NCBI GenBank assembly: GCA_018652045.1
Contig: JABICX010000005.1
Span: forward strand, 1-64,000
Reading direction: 5' to 3'
Source of the DNA: Candidatus Woesearchaeota archaeon
GTDB lineage: Archaea; Nanobdellota; Nanobdellia; UBA10117; JABICX01
Length of the DNA stretch: 64,000 bases
Program-made: the position numbers and the translations under genes
Notes under the pieces: model-generated
Database searches by the model: none
Told to the model about the DNA's origin: nothing
The model's input: only the letters and a program-made list of their open reading frames with translations
In this document: positions 1,021 to 18,599 of the stretch, piece by piece
Numbering within the stretch: the first letter of the stretch is position 1
Layout of the letters: every line of letters starts with the position of its first letter

Positions 1021-1211
1021 AGACTTAGAATAAACTTGTTCTTTATTAATTTTATTGAAACGTAGTAGCTACTTTCAGTTTAGTGGACTGCGAAAGTAGG
1101 AATATTATCGAACTGCACAACGTGTGTTTTGTGTTTTGGCCTATCAAAAGCTTTAAATATGTTACTGTTCAGTAGATAATCAACATGGAAACACTTCGGA
1201 GTGTGTTAAAA

Positions 1212-3644
1212 ATGAAGAAATTACTAACAGTATTTACAATTTTATGCGCAGCATTATTCCTTATCCAAGGAGCTAGCGCATTAGATGCTGATGTAACTCT
1301 GAACGAATTTGTAGCTAATCCAGCAATCGGTGGAAATGAATGGATTGAGTTACATAATAGTGGAGCTACTCAGATCACTTTAACCGGATGGACTATCACG
1401 GATAGTCTTGATCAACCATTTGGAATTTTAGATGGTAAGACCATAAGTGCAGGTGGATTTTTAGCTATTGAGCACACAACTGATCTTCTAAATAATAACG
1501 TTGACAGCATTACATTAAAGAATAACAATGCTGCAACGCCACACGAGCAGACTATCTCATATGGTGCAGGCGCTACTGATTATGATGGCGTACCTACACA
1601 AGGTAAGAGTGTAGCACGATTGAATAACAAACATGCTGATAATGCTTGGGAAGAGTTTAACGTTCCAACAAGAGAAATGTCAAACTCACCAGTGGTTAGT
1701 TTTGCAACTGGTTCAGTTGCAGACGCAGCTGTTGTTACAACATCTACATTTACTGTAAAACTCGCAGTTGCTGGTGGATCTAATTTAGTCGCAGGGTACC
1801 TTTCAGACGTAAGTGGTGCTAGTTGCGATTTTGTCCTTAATAAGGGATTTTTAGAGCACACTTGTAGCGATTATGCAGATGGCGCAACGATCACATATTC
1901 TGCAACAGTAAAAGACGATCACAATCAAGTAAACACAGTAGGTCCTAGAACTGTTACAGTTAATAAAGCAAAGTCTTTTGCAATTACACCTTCTCTATCC
2001 GCAGTTTCATTAGGTACTGAGAATGTTGTTGCAGTTACAACTATTACTATAACTAATGATGGTGAAGTAGACGTTGAGTTGAACACCGCAGACTTTAGTA
2101 TGAGTAACTTAATCTTTGAGCACCTAGATAGCTCAACAAGTTATGTCTATGAAAGCGAACTTGATGAGTACAAGTTAGGTATGTATATTGATACTTCAGC
2201 AATACATTGGTCATTCCCATCAGAACTTAATACACATACTTTGGGAACTACAGACACTACTCGTACTGTTGTATTGACTGGAACAACAATAATTCCACAA
2301 GAGAACCTTCCAGAATACTATGGTAAGTACGCAGGTACTTTGAGTATTGCAGGTACTCCTACTGGTGCAACTGAGAAGACTGTAAAGACTTCAGAAGTTA
2401 GAGTTTCAGTAAACCCTGAAGGTTACAATCATAGAAGCAAGTTATCAATGAAAGACATTGACTTTGATGATGACGATCCATACTTTAGAACTGAGGAGTT
2501 CGAAGTTACAGTTACTCTTGAGAACAAGTATTCTGAAAAAGTAAAGAGTATTGAACTTAACTTAGAGATCCCAGAGCTAGATATTGAGGAAAGTTCATCT
2601 AAGTTTAGTCTTAGTGATAAGGGTGATGAGAATGAAGTAACATTTACCTTTGACATTGATGACCGTGCAGATGAAGGTGAATATCCAATGTTATTCTATC
2701 TAACTGCAGAGACCGAAACTTCAGCTGGAACAAAGATCGATATTGCAGAATACAATGTTGCAGAGAAGTTAATCGTATCTGTTGATGACGACGATCTAAT
2801 CGTAGAGTCAATTAAGTTAGATGATACCCAGTATAGAGCTGGTGATGACTTTACTGTTAGAGTAAACGTACTCAACATTGGTGATGATGAACAGGAAGAT
2901 ACTCGTGTACGAGTTAAATGTACAGACTTTGATATTACACAAATGTCTGAAGTATATGATCGAGATCTAAAGGCAAACAAAGATAATGTATTTACATTTA
3001 GCTTAGAGATTCCAACCTTCGCAAAAGATGGTGAATACTTCTGTAGCGCAGACATCATGTATGATGGTTACACTTCACAAGAAGATGATGATGACACTAG
3101 CGAACACCTAACAAAAGAGTTTGTTATTGTGGTTGCAGGTGGACTTGGTTCTGGTGAAGCACCTCAGGGTGATGGAACCGCAATTATTACAGGAACATCA
3201 GCTGGAGCAGCTATACCTGGAAGCGCAACTAAGTTTACATTACAGTTGAAGAACAACGACGTAAGTGGTTCTGCAACGTACAAACTTCTGATGGAAGACT
3301 ACTCAAGTTGGGCAAGTTCAAAGGTTGAACCGGCAGAGTTAACCATACCCGCAGGTACAAGTGTGCCATTTTACGCATACTTAACACCTAACGAGGGCGT
3401 TACTGGCACAAAGACAGCAACTGTTGCAATCTATGTTGGTGGCGAACAGGTAGCTGAGAAGACATTAACTGTTACAATTAATAGCGACGCAAACGGTGGA
3501 ATACAAGTAAATCCAATTAGTGGAATTACTGGATCTTTTGCAGGTCCTCTAGACCTACCAACTGCTATTGTGATTAGCTCAATTGTTGCAGGTATTGTAA
3601 TCTTAGGCGCAATCTATATGGTTACAATCGGTAAGAAGCTTTAA
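1212..3644 (+). CDS. Surface (S-layer-like) protein with N-terminal lamin-tail-like domain, COG1361-like repeats and C-terminal TM
   Basis: Track ORF 1185-3644; likely start at MKKLLTVF (1212) after SD-like cggag. Signal peptide; LNEFVANPAIGGNEWIELHNSG resembles lamin-tail domains; C-terminal TM preceded by SGITGSFAG. Confidence 0.8.
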   Translation: MKKLLTVFTILCAALFLIQGASALDADVTLNEFVANPAIGGNEWIELHNSGATQITLTGWTITDSLDQPFGILDGKTISAGGFLAIEHTTDLLNNNVDSITLKNNNAATPHEQTISYGAGATDYDGVPTQGKSVARLNNKHADNAWEEFNVPTREMSNSPVVSFATGSVADAAVVTTSTFTVKLAVAGGSNLVAGYLSDVSGASCDFVLNKGFLEHTCSDYADGATITYSATVKDDHNQVNTVGPRTVTVNKAKSFAITPSLSAVSLGTENVVAVTTITITNDGEVDVELNTADFSMSNLIFEHLDSSTSYVYESELDEYKLGMYIDTSAIHWSFPSELNTHTLGTTDTTRTVVLTGTTIIPQENLPEYYGKYAGTLSIAGTPTGATEKTVKTSEVRVSVNPEGYNHRSKLSMKDIDFDDDDPYFRTEEFEVTVTLENKYSEKVKSIELNLEIPELDIEESSSKFSLSDKGDENEVTFTFDIDDRADEGEYPMLFYLTAETETSAGTKIDIAEYNVAEKLIVSVDDDDLIVESIKLDDTQYRAGDDFTVRVNVLNIGDDEQEDTRVRVKCTDFDITQMSEVYDRDLKANKDNVFTFSLEIPTFAKDGEYFCSADIMYDGYTSQEDDDDTSEHLTKEFVIVVAGGLGSGEAPQGDGTAIITGTSAGAAIPGSATKFTLQLKNNDVSGSATYKLLMEDYSSWASSKVEPAELTIPAGTSVPFYAYLTPNEGVTGTKTATVAIYVGGEQVAEKTLTVTINSDANGGIQVNPISGITGSFAGPLDLPTAIVISSIVAGIVILGAIYMVTIGKKL

Positions 3645-4199: not shown

Positions 4200-4345
4200 G
4201 TTGTTTGTTGCAATAGACAGTTAAAAACGCTATACTGTGGCGCACAAATAAAACCAATAGCCGTAAGGTTTAAAAGCTTTTGCTACGAAACACTAGTAAC
4301 CTAATAAGTAACTCCAGTGTGGGTTATTATTCGGAGGCTAAAAAA

Positions 4346-5935
4346 ATGAATAAAATGAACGCGCTTTTGAGCGTATTATTTACTGTACTATTATTAGTAC
4401 CGGCGACAGTGTTAGCAGCAGATTACGCAGCTATTTCAAATGTTAAAGTAGCTGGAACTGTTGAAGACGATGATAGCATTGTAACACTTAGTTATACAGC
4501 ACAGAATACTGGAACAAGTAAAGTTATCGCAAGAATTACAATTGATGGCGATGGCTTGGACAGCGTTGGACATTCTGTAGTTCTTGAAGCAGGTCTAATA
4601 AACGAACAAACTAGAACTGTTAGAATACCCGTTTCAGAATTAACTGCTGGAGACCGAGAGTTAACTGCTACTATCAAAGCAACAACTGGAACTTTAGATA
4701 AAGGAGCAGAAGCTCACGTAGTAAAATACAACGTAGCATCTGCTGATCCAGACGCAGACGACGAATTACTCGATGGTTTAGTTAATGACGTAGAAGTCGA
4801 AGAAGACGAATTAACTTATGGTGACCAGATTGAGTTCGAAATTGAATTAGAGACAACTAACGAACAAAGAATTTCAGATATGATCGTTGAAGTTGAATTC
4901 GATGGAGAGACAATCGAGACACGTGAGTTTAAGATGTTCGGCGACGATGATGATAACGTTGAAGTAACACTAGATCAGGACGACTTTAAGACTATGTTGA
5001 GCATTCCAACATCTGTAGATGATATGGATGAGGGAACTTATGACTTTGAAGTTCGTGTATACGGACGAGAAGAAGTTGAAGCAGATGGTTCAGACGGTGC
5101 AAACCGATACCATTTACTAGACGCTTTTGTCATAACAGGCGCAATAGAAGTTGAGAAGATGGACGACAACCTAGCTATCGCAGGTGTAAACTTCGAGCAG
5201 CAAGGTAATGTACTTTACACAGCAGTACTTGTAGAAAACATTGGAAACAACAACGAGGAAAATGTTAGAGTTAAGGTACAGATTTCAGATCTAGAAGTAG
5301 GACAAACTTCAAACAGAGTAATTGTTTATGAAGACGACGATGCAACAATCTATGCTCCAATCGTACTACCAAGTTTCGCAACTGGCGAGTATGACGTTAA
5401 ATTAACTGTTTTCAACGACGATGTTTCAGTAGTTAGAATTGCTGAAGACGTTGAGATGGTTGGTGTAATTTCAGCACAGCCAAGTGCAGATCTAGCAATC
5501 GGTGTAGACACAGCTATTAAGACTGTATCTCCAACTGGTGCTGTATATGCTTTGACATTTACAAACAACGGCGCAGCTGCAAGATCATTTACATTAGAAA
5601 CTGCTGGTGCAGAATGGGGACAGACTAGTGTCAATCCATCAACTGTTGTTGTTGGTGCAGGTACTAGCGAGATCGCATCTGTTTTCGTAGCTCCAAATGC
5701 AGGTCAAACTGGAACAAAACAGTTTACTGTATTCGTAAAGGAAGGAAATCAAATAGTTAAGTCAGTTGGTTTAACTGCAAATGTTGAAGGTAACTCAGTT
5801 ACTGGATCAGCAGTTTACGACTTTGAGAACTTTGTTGACTCTGGACTTAAATGGATAGCCGCAATCTTGATTGTTGTCTTGATTGTTCTGTTCGTTGTGT
5901 GGAGCTGGAACAAAGCAGACGAAGAAGAGCTTTAA
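4346..5935 (+). CDS. Surface (S-layer-like) protein, paralogous to the C-terminal half of 1212-3644
   Basis: Track ORF 4280-5935; likely start at MNKMNALLSVLF (4346) after cggagg. Signal peptide, acidic Ig-like domains, C-terminal TM preceded by NSVTGSAV. Confidence 0.8.
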   Translation: MNKMNALLSVLFTVLLLVPATVLAADYAAISNVKVAGTVEDDDSIVTLSYTAQNTGTSKVIARITIDGDGLDSVGHSVVLEAGLINEQTRTVRIPVSELTAGDRELTATIKATTGTLDKGAEAHVVKYNVASADPDADDELLDGLVNDVEVEEDELTYGDQIEFEIELETTNEQRISDMIVEVEFDGETIETREFKMFGDDDDNVEVTLDQDDFKTMLSIPTSVDDMDEGTYDFEVRVYGREEVEADGSDGANRYHLLDAFVITGAIEVEKMDDNLAIAGVNFEQQGNVLYTAVLVENIGNNNEENVRVKVQISDLEVGQTSNRVIVYEDDDATIYAPIVLPSFATGEYDVKLTVFNDDVSVVRIAEDVEMVGVISAQPSADLAIGVDTAIKTVSPTGAVYALTFTNNGAAARSFTLETAGAEWGQTSVNPSTVVVGAGTSEIASVFVAPNAGQTGTKQFTVFVKEGNQIVKSVGLTANVEGNSVTGSAVYDFENFVDSGLKWIAAILIVVLIVLFVVWSWNKADEEEL

Positions 5936-6061: not shown

Positions 6062-6817
6062 ATGGATCGTAGACATGAGATGATCATATTTTTTACCGTT
6101 CTAGGAGTACTTGCTGTGCTGGCATTATGGGCATATTCTCATCCAGTTAGTGTTAATGACAACATTTTCGATAGCATTACTGTTGGCGGTAAGGCAGATA
6201 CCTTAGATAATTACATACAAGAGACTCGTGATCGTCAGACAGAGACTCAGCGCGACAACACGATTAAGCTGTATATTAGCATGCTGGACCAAGGTAACTT
6301 CAATCGAAAGTATGCTCCAACTGGCTTTTCTGAGTCAGATCGAGTTAAGGTGTGTGCAAAAGCAAATGAATTGGCTACTAGCGCAACTAAGCTTGAACAA
6401 GCAAAGCAAATAGCTGATTTCTTAGGGAAAGAGATGGAATATGATTGGGGTAATGTTGTTATTGATGCGACAGGCAAGCCAAGGCAGGCTGCAAAGAAAG
6501 ATCCTTTAGAAGTTTTAGACGCTGGAGTGGGTCTGTGTGGAGAACTGACTAACACATATATGGTTATGACTGAATGTATTGGTGTTGACTCTTACTTTGT
6601 CTATGGTGGTGGTCATGCATGGAACGCTATAAACTTAGATGGTGTGATCTATGAGGTAGATACAACGCAGGATTGCTTTGATTGCGATGTTTCTCAGCCA
6701 GAACATAGCTATCCATTGTACGGTCTTTGCGACTTTGATAGTTGTATAACTATTACTCAGATAGCTTCACTAGCTATGGCACAAGAGAGCATCTTTGATC
6801 AGGCAATTAAGCGATAA
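6062..6817 (+). CDS. Membrane-anchored transglutaminase-like protein
   Basis: N-terminal TM; Cys/His/Asp triad context GVGLCGELTNTY ... YGGGHAWNAI ... VDTT. Confidence 0.8.
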   Translation: MDRRHEMIIFFTVLGVLAVLALWAYSHPVSVNDNIFDSITVGGKADTLDNYIQETRDRQTETQRDNTIKLYISMLDQGNFNRKYAPTGFSESDRVKVCAKANELATSATKLEQAKQIADFLGKEMEYDWGNVVIDATGKPRQAAKKDPLEVLDAGVGLCGELTNTYMVMTECIGVDSYFVYGGGHAWNAINLDGVIYEVDTTQDCFDCDVSQPEHSYPLYGLCDFDSCITITQIASLAMAQESIFDQAIKR

Positions 6818-6941: not shown

Positions 6942-9446
6942 ATGAAAAGAAGACTATTAGTATTTGTAACAATGCTCTGCGTACTATTTAGCTTAGGCAA
7001 TGCGAGTGCATTGGACAGCTTTACTTTAACTTCAGAGCAATTAACTCAAGAGACTTGCCCTACGGTTTTTACTACATATCAACTAACCGTCATGAATACT
7101 GGGGATGAAGCTGATACATATACTGTCAGTAAAGCTGGCAGTGCTGCGTCGTGGGCGCTTATTTCTCCACCTGGTTTTGCTTTAAAGCCCGGTAGATCTC
7201 AAAACATTTTTGTATATGTGACTCCGAGCAAGAGCGCTAAGACAGGATCATATTCTATAGATTTAACTGTTACTGGTACAAATGCTGGAGCTCAGACTGC
7301 TTCAGCCGCTCTTACAGTCAGTCAGTGCCATTCTCTTGATATTATACCTGTACAAGATTTTAGTGAGATCTGTACGGGTGAGTCAACCAGCTATGACTTT
7401 ACTGTAGAGAACTCAGGCTTATGGACAGAGAACCTAAGACTAAGTCTTTCAGGTAGTGCTGCAACATGGTCAAGTTTAAGTGAGGAATTCTTGCGATTAG
7501 ATAGTGGGGAATCGCAGACCGTCACAATCTTTGTTAATCCACAGGTTAATGAGTTAGGCGACTTTGATATTGCAGTTACAGCTCGTTCACTTGAGAGCAA
7601 TGCGTTGACTAGCGAGGACTTTGAGCTTAAGATCGCAGGTTGTTATGATGTAACAGTATCTGCAGCAGAGAGCTTTGCTTCATTTTGTGAGAATTCAGAA
7701 GTCTTGATTCCAGTAACAATCACAAACTCTGGAACTGCAAGTAATACCTATGATCTTTCTATTACTGGTGCAGAGTGGTCATCTATCGGTCAGAAACAGA
7801 TTACGTTAGCTGCAGGTGCTAGCAGGAATGTTAATGCAGTTCTTTTCCCAGGATATGGTGTTCAGGGTAAGTTCCAGTTTAATGTTAATGTGGATGCACT
7901 ACATGGTGAAGAAGACAGTTCTATTGCGTTGGAGGCCAATGTGCTTAAGTGTCATGATGTAAGTCTGGCGATAAGTGACGAATCAGATAAACTTTGTCCT
8001 ACAATTTCAAAAACATACACTGCACAGATACTGAATAGCGGAACCTCTAACGAGCGATTTTCCGTGTCATTAAGTGCGCCAGCGTGGGTTAGTATTGATC
8101 AAGCATCACTGGAGCTAGGAGCATCAGGTTCTGAAGAGATAAGCATTGTAGTAGAACCTCCAGCAAATGTTCTGAGCGCTAACTACCCAATAAACATTGA
8201 GGTAACATCTTTAGAAGCAAGCGGCATAACGGCTAAAGACTCGATGACCATCGAGGTCGCACCTAAAGACTCTTGCTTTGGAGTAAGAACTGTTGCTGAG
8301 AAAGATTACGTAAGTATCTCTTATGGTGAAGGTACACTTCTACCGATTATTGTAGAGAATGTTGGGTCTGAGACAGAGGAGTTTTCTCTTGATGTTTCAG
8401 GTAATGGCGCAGCATTTGCACAACTAAACCCTAGTTCTGTAACAATATCCGGTAATAGTGCAGAGACCATATATTTGTATGTGGCTATTCCAGAGCAGAC
8501 TGAGCGAACCTCTTACACAATCACTGTAGCTGCTCGAGATGAAGCTGGCGTTGTTTCTAGTTCCAGTACTATCTATGTATCTTTGACTGAAGAACCAACT
8601 ATTGTAGATCCTGAACCAACTGTTAATGAAACTGAGGAAGTTGGTGGTTTGTTAGATATGTTTGGTGAGGTTAGTTTACCTGACTTAGATCTACCAGACC
8701 TAAGTTTAGAAGGCCGGAATAGAACTTACCTTGGCGTAGGCATTGCAATAATAATTATCATAATAATTATCTCTGCGATCCTATCAAGAGAGGGTAGCAC
8801 ACCAAAGAAGAAAGCAAAGAAAGGTAGTGTATTCCAGAAGTTTTCTAATTGGTTAGAAGATGACGATGTTGATGAGATAGAAATCATCGATGAGTTTGAG
8901 ACTAAGCAACCTCAGAAGGAAGGAGCATGGCAGCGGTTTACAGGTTGGTTAGAGGCAGACGAAGCGCCAACAAAGTCAAAGGCTCGAACTACAGCTAAAC
9001 CTGCTAAGAAACCAGTTCAGAAGAAAGCAGAGAAGAGTATCTGGGTAAAGTTTGGCGAGTGGTTAGAAGAAGAACCTGAAGAAAAGACAAAGGTCACTGC
9101 AAGGCCACCATTTAGACCTAAGACTGGGAAGATGACTCTTAGAGAGAAGTTTAACTCTTGGTTAGATGAGCCTGATGAGTATGCAGATAAGCTAGCTGCT
9201 GAGAAAAAGTCAAAGAGTAAGACTAAGAAGACTGGTAAGAAGCGAGCTAAGACTGTCAGAACACCGGCAAGACCAAAGAAGACCAAAGGTGCTTTGTCAA
9301 AGTTCTCTGACTGGCTGAATGAGGATATTCCTGATCAGCCAAAGTCTAGATCTGTTGCGCGTAAGCCTGAACCTAAGAAAGCACCAGCTAAGAAGAAAGA
9401 AGAGTCTGGCTTAAACAAGTTTAGAAACTGGTTAGAAGAAGATTAA
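6942..9446 (+). CDS. Surface protein with tandem NEW3/COG1470-like domains, single TM and repeated cytoplasmic tail
   Basis: Signal peptide; ~4-5 repeats of C..(20)..NxG..(~70)..C; TM YLGVGIAIIIIIIIISAIL; Lys-rich tail with six F-x-x-W-L-[DE] motifs. Confidence 0.8.
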   Translation: MKRRLLVFVTMLCVLFSLGNASALDSFTLTSEQLTQETCPTVFTTYQLTVMNTGDEADTYTVSKAGSAASWALISPPGFALKPGRSQNIFVYVTPSKSAKTGSYSIDLTVTGTNAGAQTASAALTVSQCHSLDIIPVQDFSEICTGESTSYDFTVENSGLWTENLRLSLSGSAATWSSLSEEFLRLDSGESQTVTIFVNPQVNELGDFDIAVTARSLESNALTSEDFELKIAGCYDVTVSAAESFASFCENSEVLIPVTITNSGTASNTYDLSITGAEWSSIGQKQITLAAGASRNVNAVLFPGYGVQGKFQFNVNVDALHGEEDSSIALEANVLKCHDVSLAISDESDKLCPTISKTYTAQILNSGTSNERFSVSLSAPAWVSIDQASLELGASGSEEISIVVEPPANVLSANYPINIEVTSLEASGITAKDSMTIEVAPKDSCFGVRTVAEKDYVSISYGEGTLLPIIVENVGSETEEFSLDVSGNGAAFAQLNPSSVTISGNSAETIYLYVAIPEQTERTSYTITVAARDEAGVVSSSSTIYVSLTEEPTIVDPEPTVNETEEVGGLLDMFGEVSLPDLDLPDLSLEGRNRTYLGVGIAIIIIIIIISAILSREGSTPKKKAKKGSVFQKFSNWLEDDDVDEIEIIDEFETKQPQKEGAWQRFTGWLEADEAPTKSKARTTAKPAKKPVQKKAEKSIWVKFGEWLEEEPEEKTKVTARPPFRPKTGKMTLREKFNSWLDEPDEYADKLAAEKKSKSKTKKTGKKRAKTVRTPARPKKTKGALSKFSDWLNEDIPDQPKSRSVARKPEPKKAPAKKKEESGLNKFRNWLEED

Positions 9447-9482: not shown

Positions 9483-11477
9483 ATGCTACAGATAGTTATC
9501 CTCGCATTGGTTCTTTTAGTTATAGCAATTGTTTGGGCTTTGAGTAGTATGGGTCTTGTTTATGTTAATGTTAACTCAATGATGTCTACACCAGACAATG
9601 CTGGTAAGTTGGAAGAGAAGTTAGCTTCGGTGGAAATTGGAGAATCAAAAGAAGCATTTACTAAAAAAGTTGTTGATGATTTAAAACCTTATGGCATTAC
9701 TTTTGGGAATACACCAAAAATTAATTTCGTAGCTAGAAATCCAAGTGATACAGTTATTGGTCGTCTTGTTGGAGGTTTTAATGGAGCAAGTCTTGCGGCA
9801 TATGTACCGCTATCTGGCAACATTGTAGTATATGAAGATTCCGCTAGAGAGAGTGTTATTTTTGAGGACATGCGTTCCAGAAAAGCGGCAGGTACTAAGA
9901 GCACGATAGGAAGCGATCTTAATAAAGACCTACACTACATTGCAGATGAGATTAATACGCGTGTTAAGAATGGTGACATGACACCTGAACTACAATCAGA
10001 ACTTACACACACGATCAAAGATCTTCGAGATTACGCGACAAAGAGTAAATCTGAAAGCGACACAATTAGTCGTATGGGCGAGCGTTTAGGAATAAACGCA
10101 GATATCTCGGACTTATCTGACGAGTATAAGATGATGGTGTTAGTTAAGACGGGATTAGACTTACTTGGTACTAAGAGCGAATCGCTTGACCGATATAATT
10201 CTATAATAAATACATATAACTCAAAGCTCGCTGCAGATATTGAGCATGAATTAATACATAAGTGGCAGACAGAAAATAAGTTATCTCCTGAAGACGCACA
10301 GCGACGTTTTAATGAGTTTCAGCGTATCATGTCACAATCAGATCAATACACTAATCTATCGATGTTATCAGAGTCCGAAGGTAATCTAGATAATTTCAAT
10401 ACGTTGTTTACCGGACCTTCGTATAAACTGCATCAAGGTCTACAATACGAACTTATTAAAGATAAATTAGGAGATATTCAGCGCAAGAAACAGAATTTTG
10501 CAAGAAAAGATGCTGAATGGGAAAAAATGTATGATTCGATTCTCACGCAAGAATTTGCATTAAAAGAACAAATACATGAAGAGCAACGTGGTTCTGTTGC
10601 TAAATCTGATAAGACTTATGCAGTAATGGAGAAAAAGCGAGTTAGGTTAAAAAGTGAAATATCAGGCATAAATAAACAGCTATATGGTACTGAAAAAGAT
10701 ATTACCGAAATCGACCTCGACGACGATTATGAATTACCCGATATATCTAATGAAGAACGTAACAGATTGAGCGAGCAAAAAAGTGAGCTACGTATGGAGC
10801 TGTATCATCTTGAGGATAATCAGAAAACATACTTTGACAAAAACATTGCTGAGAAGGATCGTAGAATAAAGTCCTTGGAAAAACGATCGAATCGAATTTA
10901 TGATAAGCAAGAAGCAAACCGACAGCATTGGAAGCACTTCTTGGCAGGACAGGTAGAAATGGGTATGAAGCAAGCGGAAAACGATCCGAGAATGTCGTAT
11001 TTGCTTGGCCATAGAGCTATTGCAGGTTCAGATAGACAGGATGACGCAGGTATAAGTGAAGGCTTTGCTTGGCTATGGACAACCTATAAGGACGGATTCA
11101 CTCCTGATTCAATTCAGTATGCTTCAAATATTCTTGGCGAATACAGTGGTAGAGATACACCACAATACAAAGAGATGTTTAACGATCTGATTGGTCTGCG
11201 CTCGAAGTTGAAAGATGCGAGGGATATTGATGATGCAGATGTTATGAAAATACTTCTGCCAATACAAAACGGTATGGATGTAAAAATGCAAAAAGGTCAT
11301 ATTCGAGATAGTTCAGTAAGACAATTAACTGAAGACCCTCGCGCATTTAAACAGTTGTTAGATTACGTAGATACTACGCAAGATAAAACGCGTGTTGCAA
11401 AACAGATACTTGGCTGGTTAGATGCTCAAAAAAGAAGTATGCATGGAAAATTACAGCATAGCCCTCGAGCGATCTAG
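9483..11477 (+). CDS. Membrane-anchored putative zinc metallopeptidase with coiled-coil insert
   Basis: N-terminal TM; HELIH at 10245-10259 (in frame); long charged helical region; later GISEGFAWLW. Confidence 0.6.
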   Translation: MLQIVILALVLLVIAIVWALSSMGLVYVNVNSMMSTPDNAGKLEEKLASVEIGESKEAFTKKVVDDLKPYGITFGNTPKINFVARNPSDTVIGRLVGGFNGASLAAYVPLSGNIVVYEDSARESVIFEDMRSRKAAGTKSTIGSDLNKDLHYIADEINTRVKNGDMTPELQSELTHTIKDLRDYATKSKSESDTISRMGERLGINADISDLSDEYKMMVLVKTGLDLLGTKSESLDRYNSIINTYNSKLAADIEHELIHKWQTENKLSPEDAQRRFNEFQRIMSQSDQYTNLSMLSESEGNLDNFNTLFTGPSYKLHQGLQYELIKDKLGDIQRKKQNFARKDAEWEKMYDSILTQEFALKEQIHEEQRGSVAKSDKTYAVMEKKRVRLKSEISGINKQLYGTEKDITEIDLDDDYELPDISNEERNRLSEQKSELRMELYHLEDNQKTYFDKNIAEKDRRIKSLEKRSNRIYDKQEANRQHWKHFLAGQVEMGMKQAENDPRMSYLLGHRAIAGSDRQDDAGISEGFAWLWTTYKDGFTPDSIQYASNILGEYSGRDTPQYKEMFNDLIGLRSKLKDARDIDDADVMKILLPIQNGMDVKMQKGHIRDSSVRQLTEDPRAFKQLLDYVDTTQDKTRVAKQILGWLDAQKRSMHGKLQHSPRAI

Positions 11478-12373
11478 ACATTTACGATCATAAAGTCTTT
11501 TGCTAGTGTGGTGTTCTTGAATACTGAAGTGGCCTCTTTTTTTAGTTCAGAAACATCTTTGTAGCGTTGGCTGAAGTGTGTGAGAACTAACTTGCTTGCC
11601 TTTGCAGATTTAGCGATCTTGGCAGCATCTTTGACAGTAAGATGACCGTAATCTTTTACTTTGTCGCGTAGCTTGTTTGAGAAAGTACCTTCACAGATTA
11701 GTAAGTCTGAATCTTTCGCGAACTTAGCTAGGTCTGCAAAAGGTGCAGTGTCGAATATGATTGTTAGTTTCTTGCCCGGGCTAGCATATGTAACATCTTT
11801 TGCTTTGATTTTCTTCCCGTTGATTGTGACATCTTGACCTTGCTGGAGTTTTGCAAGTGCAGGTAATCCTTGTACCTTTTCTTTTCTAACCCACATTTTA
11901 TCAATGCGATACCTGTCTTTTTCCTTAAACGAGTAAGCTAGACAGGGTATTCGATGCTTCAGGAACTGAACTTGAACTGCATAATCTTTGGTATTGATCG
12001 CTAGTTTCGATGTGCGTGTATCTACTTCATGTACTGATAACTTGAAGTTTGGTCTGATGTGCAGCGCTTGAAATAGGTATTTGATGGATTCTTTTGTTCC
12101 GCCCGGCCCAAAGATCTCTAATGGATCTGTTCGATTATTCATAGCCATGCTTTCTAGCAAGCCAGGTAGACCTAAGACATGATCGCCGTGCCAGTGTGTG
12201 ATAAAGATTTTAGTGATTTTCATCGGGCTCTCACCAGCAATTCTTAGCTGGCGCTGGGTTCCTTCACCGCAATCAAATAGGATTGCTTCAGGACCATATC
12301 GCAGTAAGATTGAGGTATGACTTCGTTCTCTTGTTGGGAACGAGCTTGCTGTACCCAGGAACTGAACTTTCAT
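11474..12373 (-). CDS. rnz: Ribonuclease Z (tRNA 3' processing)
   Basis: MKVQFLGTASSFPTRERSHTSILLRYG...LFDCGEGTQRQL...THWHGDHVLGLPGLL. Track ORF extends to 12418; MKVQFLG start is more likely. Confidence 0.93.
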   Translation of the reverse strand: MKVQFLGTASSFPTRERSHTSILLRYGPEAILFDCGEGTQRQLRIAGESPMKITKIFITHWHGDHVLGLPGLLESMAMNNRTDPLEIFGPGGTKESIKYLFQALHIRPNFKLSVHEVDTRTSKLAINTKDYAVQVQFLKHRIPCLAYSFKEKDRYRIDKMWVRKEKVQGLPALAKLQQGQDVTINGKKIKAKDVTYASPGKKLTIIFDTAPFADLAKFAKDSDLLICEGTFSNKLRDKVKDYGHLTVKDAAKIAKSAKASKLVLTHFSQRYKDVSELKKEATSVFKNTTLAKDFMIVNV

Positions 12374-12490
12374 ATGTTTAAGTATACAAATCTGGCTTAA
12401 AAACGTAACTATTTGCACTTACTACTCAATGCTCACAATATGTTATATATGATTAATGTTCTTCCTAAGCATGAACCATGGTGGGTAGAT

Positions 12491-15337: not shown

Positions 15338-16540
15338 ATGAAATTAACAAAGAGGCGAATAATATTAAGTACAGTATTTTTAGTTGCTGTTTTTTCATTA
15401 GTGTTTGTAAGTAGTGCATATGTTAATGGACAGGCAGTGGTATCTAATCCAAAGGTTACGTGGGTATCCCACACAGAATATTGGAGCGGAGATGACGTAT
15501 CTACAATCGTAAGACTGACTGACTATCTAGGTAGACCTTACCAAGATATTGTTGGTTGTCGAGTAACAATCATGTATCCAGATAAAACTGTTTGGGTATC
15601 CGATGCTTTGATGGGCGAATCAACTGTAGCAGGTAACTACTATCATATTGAGGTAGCACCTTATACACAGGGAACATATGAGCAAGAGGTAAGGTGTACA
15701 TATGGTGCAGGTGAGGTAATAACAACATCACAATCCTTCCACGTAAATCCCGCGCTGACTCGAATCCAGAATATAAGTGCAGACTTGATTTCACAAACAG
15801 CACTTCTAACTGATGTTCATACAAGTATTACAGCACAGATAACAGATACAAATCAATCAGTTAACACAAATATAGATGAATCTGAGACAACAATTACAAC
15901 TTTGATAAATACCGTTGATACAGACCTAACAAATCAGATGACTACGTTAGGTGTTGATGTTGATACAAAGCTAACTGATGTAAATGAAAGTATAAGTGCT
16001 CAGCTATCTGATACACAGATATCTATTGAAGCTAATTTAGGGAGTACTGAGACTACCTTGAGTAATCTTATGACAACTTTAAATAGTGATTTGCAAAGCT
16101 ATCTAACTGAATACTTGGACGAATTAAATACTACATTAAATGCAGTTTATACCGATACACAGTGGATCTCGACCAACGCAATGAATCAAGATAATGCTGC
16201 AGCAATAGATGCAAGATTTGATACAGTTGATAATAATCTTGCGTTAATCGAAGACTTTTGTAGTAACCCACAAACAAGTGGTTCAGATTTATGTGTAGAG
16301 ATCGATCAGCTAAGAGTGGTTGTAGATACTATGCGAACTGAGCAAACAACGTATTACAATGATTTAGACACAACTACGACAAGTACCTGGGATTTATTGA
16401 GTGGATCAGTATCTACAAACATAGATACATTGTTAGTTGATGTAGGTGTTATCGGAACACAGACAACAGAGATCAACGAGACACTTGCTCAGATAAGAAC
16501 AGAACAAGTTGAGAGAATAAATATGCAAGTAATATCTTAA
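15338..16540 (+). CDS. Surface stalk protein A: N-terminal anchor, Ig-like domain, long coiled coil
   Basis: N-terminal hydrophobic segment; WVSHTEYWSGDDVSTIVRLTDY domain; heptad-like ISAQLSDTQISIEANLGSTETTL repeats. Confidence 0.75.
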   Translation: MKLTKRRIILSTVFLVAVFSLVFVSSAYVNGQAVVSNPKVTWVSHTEYWSGDDVSTIVRLTDYLGRPYQDIVGCRVTIMYPDKTVWVSDALMGESTVAGNYYHIEVAPYTQGTYEQEVRCTYGAGEVITTSQSFHVNPALTRIQNISADLISQTALLTDVHTSITAQITDTNQSVNTNIDESETTITTLINTVDTDLTNQMTTLGVDVDTKLTDVNESISAQLSDTQISIEANLGSTETTLSNLMTTLNSDLQSYLTEYLDELNTTLNAVYTDTQWISTNAMNQDNAAAIDARFDTVDNNLALIEDFCSNPQTSGSDLCVEIDQLRVVVDTMRTEQTTYYNDLDTTTTSTWDLLSGSVSTNIDTLLVDVGVIGTQTTEINETLAQIRTEQVERINMQVIS

Positions 16541-16571: not shown

Positions 16572-17246
16572 ATGGATCAAAGGAATATTAAAGCCAGACT
16601 TGGGGATTATGTTAAAAATATTCCTTTGAAACTTTCTAAGTTTAATCAAAAATATAAGCTCTCACTAGTATTCTTGGTAATCTTAGTGCCTGCTGCAGCA
16701 ATCGGAACTGGCTATTGGTACTTTTTTACAGATCCGGGTCTGGATTTACACATGGTATCTGGTACTGAGTATATCAGTAATGAAGAAGGACAGCTTATTG
16801 TAAGGATGACTGACTATACTGGCGAACCAATATCCGATGCTACTTGTTACGCAAACATCTTGTTCCCAAATAAATTTAACTTTATTACAAACCAGCCTAT
16901 GACTGAATCTACTGAATCAGGTAACTATTATTACTTATTTACCACACCATCTACGGTTGGGATATATGAGTACACTATAAAATGTAGCTATGTTAGAAAT
17001 GGGCAATTGGTTACGTCAGCAATATCTCATTCTTTTCATGTTTCTCCTGCACTTATATCTATGCTTCAGCAGTTGAATGAGACGCGTGTCCAGCTGGAAG
17101 ATGCTAAAGAAGAGTTGCTTATTGTATTGGAACTTGTAAATGAGTCTCTAGAAGCTAGTGTAACACAAAAGATCGATACTGAAGCAGATGTTCGAGATCA
17201 GAAGATGAAAGATATGGGTGATGCTATAAGTGAGATATTTACATAA
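16572..17246 (+). CDS. Surface stalk protein B: shorter divergent paralog of 15338 and 17394 genes
   Basis: TM LSLVFLVILVPAAAIGTGYWY; same domain VRMTDYTGEPISDATCYANILFPNK...SFHVSPAL; short coiled coil. Confidence 0.7.
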   Translation: MDQRNIKARLGDYVKNIPLKLSKFNQKYKLSLVFLVILVPAAAIGTGYWYFFTDPGLDLHMVSGTEYISNEEGQLIVRMTDYTGEPISDATCYANILFPNKFNFITNQPMTESTESGNYYYLFTTPSTVGIYEYTIKCSYVRNGQLVTSAISHSFHVSPALISMLQQLNETRVQLEDAKEELLIVLELVNESLEASVTQKIDTEADVRDQKMKDMGDAISEIFT

Positions 17247-17393: not shown

Positions 17394-18599
17394 ATGAGAA
17401 TGAATAGAAAGAGAAAGATTATTTTGAGTACGGTGGTTTTAGTTGCGCTGTTTTCAGTGATTTTTGTACAATCTGCTTATGTTAATGGGAAGGAATTGAT
17501 TGATTCACCCGAGGTTATGTGGGTATCCCACACAGAATATTGGAGCGGAGATGACGTATCTACAATCGTAAGACTGACTGACTATCGTGGTGAGCCATAT
17601 AGTAATGTGCAAGACTGTACTGTTACAATCAAATATCCAGATAAAACAGACTGGATTGTGGACGCAGCGATGTCCGAGTCAACAGTTTCAGGTAATTGGT
17701 ATCACACAGATGTGGCACCATATACACAGGGAACATATGAGCAAGAGGTAACTTGTACCTATGGTGCAAGTAAGACAGTTAAAACATCGCAATCCTTCCA
17801 TATAAATCCAGCACTGACGCAGATCCAGAATATAAGTGCAGATCTTACAGCTCAGACAGCACTTCTAACTGATGTGCAGGGTTCTATTTCTGCGCAGATT
17901 GTTTCGACAAATGATACTATAAATCTGAACGTAGATGAATCTGAGACAACAATTACAACTTTGATTAATACCGTTGAGGGAGATTTATCAAATCAGATGG
18001 CTACTTTGGGAACGAATGTTGATGCACAAATAGTTGATGTAAATACAAGTTTGAGTGGTCAGTTAGGTGATACACAAGTTTCAATAGAGACTAATTTAGG
18101 TAATACTGAGACAACATTAAGTGATCTAATGACAACGCTAGATAGTAATCTGAAGACATATCTAACAGTATATCTTGACGATATTAATGGTACTTTGACT
18201 AGTGTATATACAGATACTCAGTGGTTGTCTTTGAATGCTATGAATCAAGAGGACGCAGCATTAATTCAGGCAAGGTTTGATACAGTTGATACTAATTTGG
18301 AATTAATCGAAGACTTTTGTAGCAATTCTCAGACAAATGTATCTGATCTATGTGGTGAGGTTACCAACTTGCGAATTGTTATTGATACCATGAGAGCAGA
18401 ACAGACAGGTTATTATACTGACTTGAATCAGACAACTTTGAATACATGGAACCTGTTGAGCGGAGAGATCGCAACAGAGATTGATTCATTGCTAGTAGAT
18501 ATTGGTATAATACGAACACAGACAACTGCGATCAATGAGACACTTAGTGCGATTAGACAAGAACAGCTAGAGGAGATTAGAATTCATACAATCTCCTAA
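17394..18599 (+). CDS. Surface stalk protein C: close paralog of 15338-16540
   Basis: Same architecture and length (401 vs 400 aa); patches of identical DNA. Confidence 0.75.
   Translation: MRMNRKRKIILSTVVLVALFSVIFVQSAYVNGKELIDSPEVMWVSHTEYWSGDDVSTIVRLTDYRGEPYSNVQDCTVTIKYPDKTDWIVDAAMSESTVSGNWYHTDVAPYTQGTYEQEVTCTYGASKTVKTSQSFHINPALTQIQNISADLTAQTALLTDVQGSISAQIVSTNDTINLNVDESETTITTLINTVEGDLSNQMATLGTNVDAQIVDVNTSLSGQLGDTQVSIETNLGNTETTLSDLMTTLDSNLKTYLTVYLDDINGTLTSVYTDTQWLSLNAMNQEDAALIQARFDTVDTNLELIEDFCSNSQTNVSDLCGEVTNLRIVIDTMRAEQTGYYTDLNQTTLNTWNLLSGEIATEIDSLLVDIGIIRTQTTAINETLSAIRQEQLEEIRIHTIS

Follow-up and report, generated by a model that had tools for sequence, protein, structure and literature searches.

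A repeated aromatic-acidic motif in the predicted cytoplasmic tail of an Ig-like surface protein from a Woesearchaeota genome

How the archaeal coat is coordinated from inside with division, growth and host contact is an open problem, and DPANN cells are almost impossible to manipulate genetically. A gene in the DNA analysed here (the window, a stretch of 64,000 nucleotides from Candidatus Woesearchaeota archaeon) may bear on this problem: it encodes a surface protein with a repeated short motif in its tail. The initial annotation had reported six F-x-x-W-L repeats in a Lys-rich tail, and all six peptides that it quoted are present in the translation of 6942-9446. The features of this gene, whose product we call the tail protein, and of its neighbours are collected in Table 1.

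Table 1. Features of the tail-protein gene and of neighbouring genes in the window
Feature	Position	Strand	Basis or remark
Putative S-layer protein	1185..3644	+	NF033506 PACE-CTERM-PROT, 135.6 bits, above the cut-off of 110
Ig-like single-TM surface protein	4280..5935	+	NF033506, 78.6 bits, below the cut-off of 110
Ig-like single-pass surface protein gene with motif array (tail protein)	6942..9446	+	834 aa
N-terminal signal peptide MKRRLLVFVTMLCVLFSLGNASA	6942..7010	+	Read from sequence
Ectodomain, repeated Ig-like domains (Pfam FixG_C, HYDIN Ig, NPCBM_assoc), conserved Cys	7011..8732	+	
Transmembrane helix LGVGIAIIIIIIIISAIL	8733..8786	+	Hydropathy; helix in single-sequence AF2 model
Motif copy 1, VFQKFSNWLEDD	8829..8864	+	Relaxed-motif search and position counts; AF2 helix
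Motif copy 2, AWQRFTGWLEAD, weakest match	8925..8960	+	Translation and position counts
Motif copy 3, IWVKFGEWLEEE	9039..9074	+	Relaxed-motif search and position counts
Motif copy 4, LREKFNSWLDEP	9138..9173	+	Relaxed-motif search; AF2 helix
Motif copy 5, ALSKFSDWLNED	9291..9326	+	Relaxed-motif search; AF2 helix
Motif copy 6, GLNKFRNWLEED, exact C-terminus	9408..9443	+	Relaxed-motif search; AF2 helix
tRNase Z, convergent neighbour	11474..12418	-	Named by reading the sequence; synteny conserved in the order

The tail protein is made up, in order, of a signal peptide, an ectodomain of about 570 residues, a single Ile-rich transmembrane (TM) helix and a Lys-rich tail of 219 residues. This arrangement, in which the signal peptide and the TM helix were assigned from hydropathy, would place the tail on the cytoplasmic side; the N-terminal hydrophobic stretch is also present in orthologues. 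Three Pfam domains of the ectodomain score above their gathering thresholds, namely FixG_C (85 bits against 25.6), HYDIN Ig (51.3 against 25.5) and NPCBM_assoc (34.1 against 24.4). Two named surface-protein families are approached but not reached. The match to NF033506 (54.2 bits, cut-off 110) is weak, runs through the Ig-like domains and excludes the tail, while the choice-of-anchor T family NF041740, whose description holds no cytoplasmic motif array, matches the N-terminal Ig-like domains just below its cut-off (67.2 against 70 bits). The tail alone gave nothing credible in a Pfam search (best E 0.015), the PDB sequence search with the tail-protein profile (A1) had zero matches at E <= 0.01, and the motif was not described in the literature searched (PACE-CTERM, Woesearchaeota surface proteins, and S-layer TM anchors with cytoplasmic tails). 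The earlier statement that no described family has such an array therefore holds for these three sources.

The NF033506 similarity is shared with the two upstream genes, fully with the putative S-layer gene and partially with the Ig-like gene that follows it. Relatives of these upstream Ig-like genes precede the tail-protein gene in the genomes of the window's order, and in the other families of the class the tail gene again lies downstream of an Ig-like gene. Together, the ectodomain and the neighbours point to a role in the cell coat, as far as can be judged from the sequences. The abundance that the initial annotation ascribed to the surface protein has this S-layer-like neighbourhood as its sole basis. 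The product of the putative S-layer gene also carries a Lamin Tail Domain (PF00932). A membrane-anchored transglutaminase-like protein (PF01841) is encoded at 6062-6817, inserted between the surface genes of the window, and no counterpart of it was found at the loci of the order relatives examined.

The Phe codons of the six motif copies lie at 8841, 8937, 9051, 9150, 9303 and 9420. Lys or Arg directly precedes the Phe in all six, and an acidic residue stands two residues past WL in five, copy 2 reading WLEADE. When the motif is relaxed but must still have two acidic residues behind WL, it is matched by five of the six copies; shuffled tails average 0.02 matches, and none of 500 shuffles reached five. 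The linkers between the copies are strongly basic. At the DNA level, the mean pairwise identity of the copies is 66% in the eight motif codons as compared with 38-39% in the flanks, which argues that the array is old and kept by protein-level selection, and is not a fresh tandem duplication. A genome-wide search with the corresponding DNA pattern returned the array copies and one FSEWFQE in a stop-filled frame on another contig; at that stringency, the motif is thus specific to the tail-protein gene.

Orthologues of the tail protein are present in all 18 genomes of the window's order, including the partial genes at contig ends in G014 and G001. The initial annotation had made conservation of the repeat in orthologues one test of its proposal, and the repeat withstood it: 17 of the 18 tails contain the motif, with 44 copies against 0.57 expected from shuffled tails, the copy counts depending on the regular expression used. 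The exception (G006) ends in KKIRELLEDEEE, where the layout is kept with Leu replacing the aromatic residues. The number of copies per protein ranges from one to eight, and the linkers are divergent. Nine of the proteins have their last copy at the C-terminus or a few residues from it. Counting from the Phe of F-x-x-W-L as position 0, the copies have F at 0 (37/44), L at +4 (41/44), E at +6 (42/44), K or R at -1 (39/44) and W at -3 (26/44); an aromatic residue at +3, a position imposed by the search rule, is W in 36 copies and F in the other eight. In three congeneric species, W-x-[RK]-F-V-D-W-L-E-E is retained through several synonymous codon changes. The motif codons of these species differ mostly synonymously, and the Pro/Ala/Gln linker varies freely.

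Outside the order, the motif takes another form. A profile search covered 382 genomes of the class, sampled evenly from a larger group, and we read the tails of 46 high-scoring orthologues from its other families. A single copy of [IV]-x-x-F-F-E-E-E (for example, VADFFEEE) was found in 37 of the 46, against 0.95 expected, and it sits past the TM helix, 2-8 residues inside the membrane. These copies have F at +3 in 37/37 and at +4 in 36/37; since both positions and the acidic ones are partly selected by the search rule, the sharper evidence lies in two features that the rule did not require, the preference for F instead of W and the richness in E past +7. Nine tails lack a standard match. In one of them FFEEE is kept and the first motif position holds Ala, two run as far as FF and are ended there by a stop codon, and the remaining six are real losses, all in one family (f9). 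The motif-less clade of f9 (L228, L230, L231, L233, L236 and L243) retains the ectodomain, and would be useful in phylogenetic profiling for a partner. Among more distant homologues, the motif was seen in 1 of 18.

In a tree of the ectodomains, the proteins of the order fall in one clade (100/99), to which multi-copy tails are confined, with single-copy lineages interleaved among them. On the simplest reading, an ancestral juxtamembrane motif would have come away from the membrane and exchanged its FF for WL, and would either have multiplied on more than one occasion or have multiplied and been lost again; the direction of these changes is read from the tree. The window's array would accordingly go back to one [IV]xxFFEEE next to the membrane, a form that much of the class has, and this relation was missed in the initial annotation. 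The switch from FF to WL could serve as a co-evolution signal for locating a binding groove.

The motif appears suited to form a helix. Single-sequence AlphaFold2 modelling of the TM helix and tail placed helices over four of the six copies and left the rest mostly unstructured, at low confidence (mean pLDDT 59). The hydrophobic residues at -4/-3, 0, +3 and +4 make an amphipathic helix, with W, F/I, F/W and L/F on one face, three acidic residues after them and Lys before. The short amphipathic helices proposed earlier are supported in that helices are predicted over several copies, less so in that the hydrophobic moments of some copies are only moderately above composition-shuffled controls. 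Two consensus peptides of the motif read KKGIWQKFSDWLEEEDE and KYWKKIVDFFEEEIEEE.

We infer from these observations a helical docking motif, a cytosolic partner and a link from coat to cytoplasm. Specifically, the explanation that we favour, and judge to be somewhat more probable than all others together, is that the tail motif forms a short helix on which a conserved cytosolic partner docks, and that the array makes this docking multivalent. The docking motif, with the consensus W-x-K-[FI]-x-D-[FW]-[FL]-E-E-E, would fold on binding into an amphipathic helix of two to three turns recognised by a putative conserved cytosolic protein. The ancestral state would be one copy right under the membrane, on an Ig-like protein that is probably part of the S-layer as its anchor or stalk. 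Within the window's order, this motif would have left the membrane, acquired WL in place of FF, and increased to up to eight copies along a flexible tail rich in Lys; the extra copies may strengthen binding through avidity or let each surface protein hold more partners. A deeply conserved motif of ten residues, found on one coat-associated protein in many genomes, offers a concrete bait for such a partner.

The same amphipathic helices could instead act as in-plane membrane anchors that lie on the inner leaflet, with the Lys-rich linkers binding anionic lipid. The strongly basic linkers and the ancestral copy, which runs straight on from the TM helix, agree with this, as does the spacing of the motif, which we take to resemble that of the C-terminal helix of FtsA. 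The residues, however, are near-invariant in identity and not merely hydrophobic, and such acidic and aromatic conservation argues against a plain membrane-binding helix. Furthermore, the conserved acidic residues E-E-E/D (+5 to +7) would face repulsion from an anionic bilayer, and the protein is already anchored by its TM helix. Near-invariance, restriction to a single protein and persistence of the motif away from the membrane together favour a protein groove over plain lipid binding, and we regard membrane anchoring as unlikely, if far from negligible.

The alternation of acidic-aromatic motifs with basic linkers, in variable copy number, is also that of a sticker-and-spacer polymer. The tails might then cluster by self-association of aromatic/acidic motifs and Lys-rich linkers into a layer or condensate under the membrane and so give the coat its organisation from within. 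Relatives mostly carry just one copy, next to the membrane, where multivalent self-clustering would be weak, and the near-invariance of single residues suits a specific groove better; self-association is, in our estimate, rather improbable.

Gene linkage suggests a further candidate for the partner. Past the tail gene, most members of the order share a convergent tRNase Z, a tRNA-splicing endonuclease (EndA) and glycyl-tRNA synthetase (GlyRS), names that rest on sequence reading. In the other families of the class, 17 of 20 loci (L260-L279) have an SMC gene close to the tail-protein gene and convergent with it; Pfam confirms SMC in two. The tail might therefore link the coat to the chromosome, through SMC or a nucleoid protein. 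Convergent genes, however, are not co-transcribed, the order has tRNase Z in that place instead, and the best SMC match in the window's genome is on another contig (C12), so that the linkage is a lead only and we give a chromosome link very little weight. The conserved neighbours of both groups are housekeeping genes, and the linkage shifts between clades. A direct scan of GTDB contigs for named orthologues of the tail protein found none, and when the neighbouring tRNase Z was used instead, the tail protein adjoined it in none of the 80 archaeal loci obtained. These relatives are mostly labelled Woesearchaeota, Pacearchaeota or Nanoarchaeota, which places the window in that part of DPANN.

Aromatic residues are common at membrane interfaces, and the motif could be an ordinary juxtamembrane flank, an aromatic belt with charges that has no specific function and drifted into repeats, but acidic residues just inside the membrane contradict the positive-inside rule, and conservation over dozens of genomes with arrays away from the membrane would be so hard to reach by drift that we find this scarcely credible.

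Three specific identities of the motif were rejected. A sorting or other general motif is at odds with the absence of the pattern from the other proteins of the genome; FFEEE matches in other proteins of the class stand in unrelated contexts, none juxtamembrane, and are attributed to chance. The PCNA-binding (PIP) box has a similar h-x-x-a-a spacing, but on inspection the position of its Gln is taken by Trp or Leu, followed by acidic residues. Mimicry of the SepF-binding C-terminal peptide of FtsZ was dismissed because the FtsZ copies of the genome end in DLSEHLGIEFVD and SELGIDMIR, unlike the motif. The window's genome encodes two FtsZ copies and one SepF, and no Snf7-type protein was detected in it.

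Among known systems, the tail protein is nearest in function to SlaB, a likeness that comes without a demonstrated sequence relation. SlaB is the membrane anchor of the Sulfolobus S-layer, a secreted protein with Ig-like domains, a C-terminal TM helix and a separate S-layer protein as partner (PMC10903991, PMC6805947). In S. acidocaldarius, this helix is predicted at the C-terminus, at residues 448-470 (PMC10903991). Silencing of SlaB disturbs cell division, and the possibility has been raised that SlaB directly contacts CdvA, a division protein of the cytosol (PMC6805947). The tail protein likewise combines an Ig-like ectodomain, a C-terminal TM helix (from hydropathy) and S-layer gene neighbours. 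It differs in that a coiled-coil stalk is not in evidence and in that it has a putative cytoplasmic docking array, which the portions of the SlaB papers used here do not mention for SlaB.

Parallels to the motif itself come from other proteins. The membrane-targeting sequence of FtsA and the N-terminal helix of SepF are short amphipathic helices with W and L similarly spaced, to which the tail motif adds a conserved acidic EEE, many copies and attachment to a TM protein. EPYC1 is a multivalent tail in which a short helical motif is repeated in a disordered basic linker; its motif is different, and the array described here is on the predicted cytoplasmic tail of a surface protein. A wider proposal, which we put forward tentatively and think rather less probable than its negation, is that a short motif on the tail of an Ig-like anchor protein serves specifically to wire the DPANN S-layer to a cytosolic scaffold, and that one order made this single contact a multivalent array. 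If true, this would be a way of coupling inside and outside for which the literature searched gives no example among archaeal S-layers.

Some further features of these loci deserve mention. Genes for the origin-associated OapB/OapC lie near the tail gene in some of the L260-L279 loci. In the window, 15338-16540, 16572-17246 and 17394-18599 encode a group of three related proteins, secreted or in the membrane, which have a domain in common at the N-terminus and a long region of coiled-coil-like repeats; the first protein matches an Apolipoprotein profile. Several single-motif orthologues (L201, L206, L210 and L215) end in a C-terminal FY or YY, and the endings YY, YW or YWK are seen in some of the Ig-like surface proteins encoded next to such genes (L082-L086).
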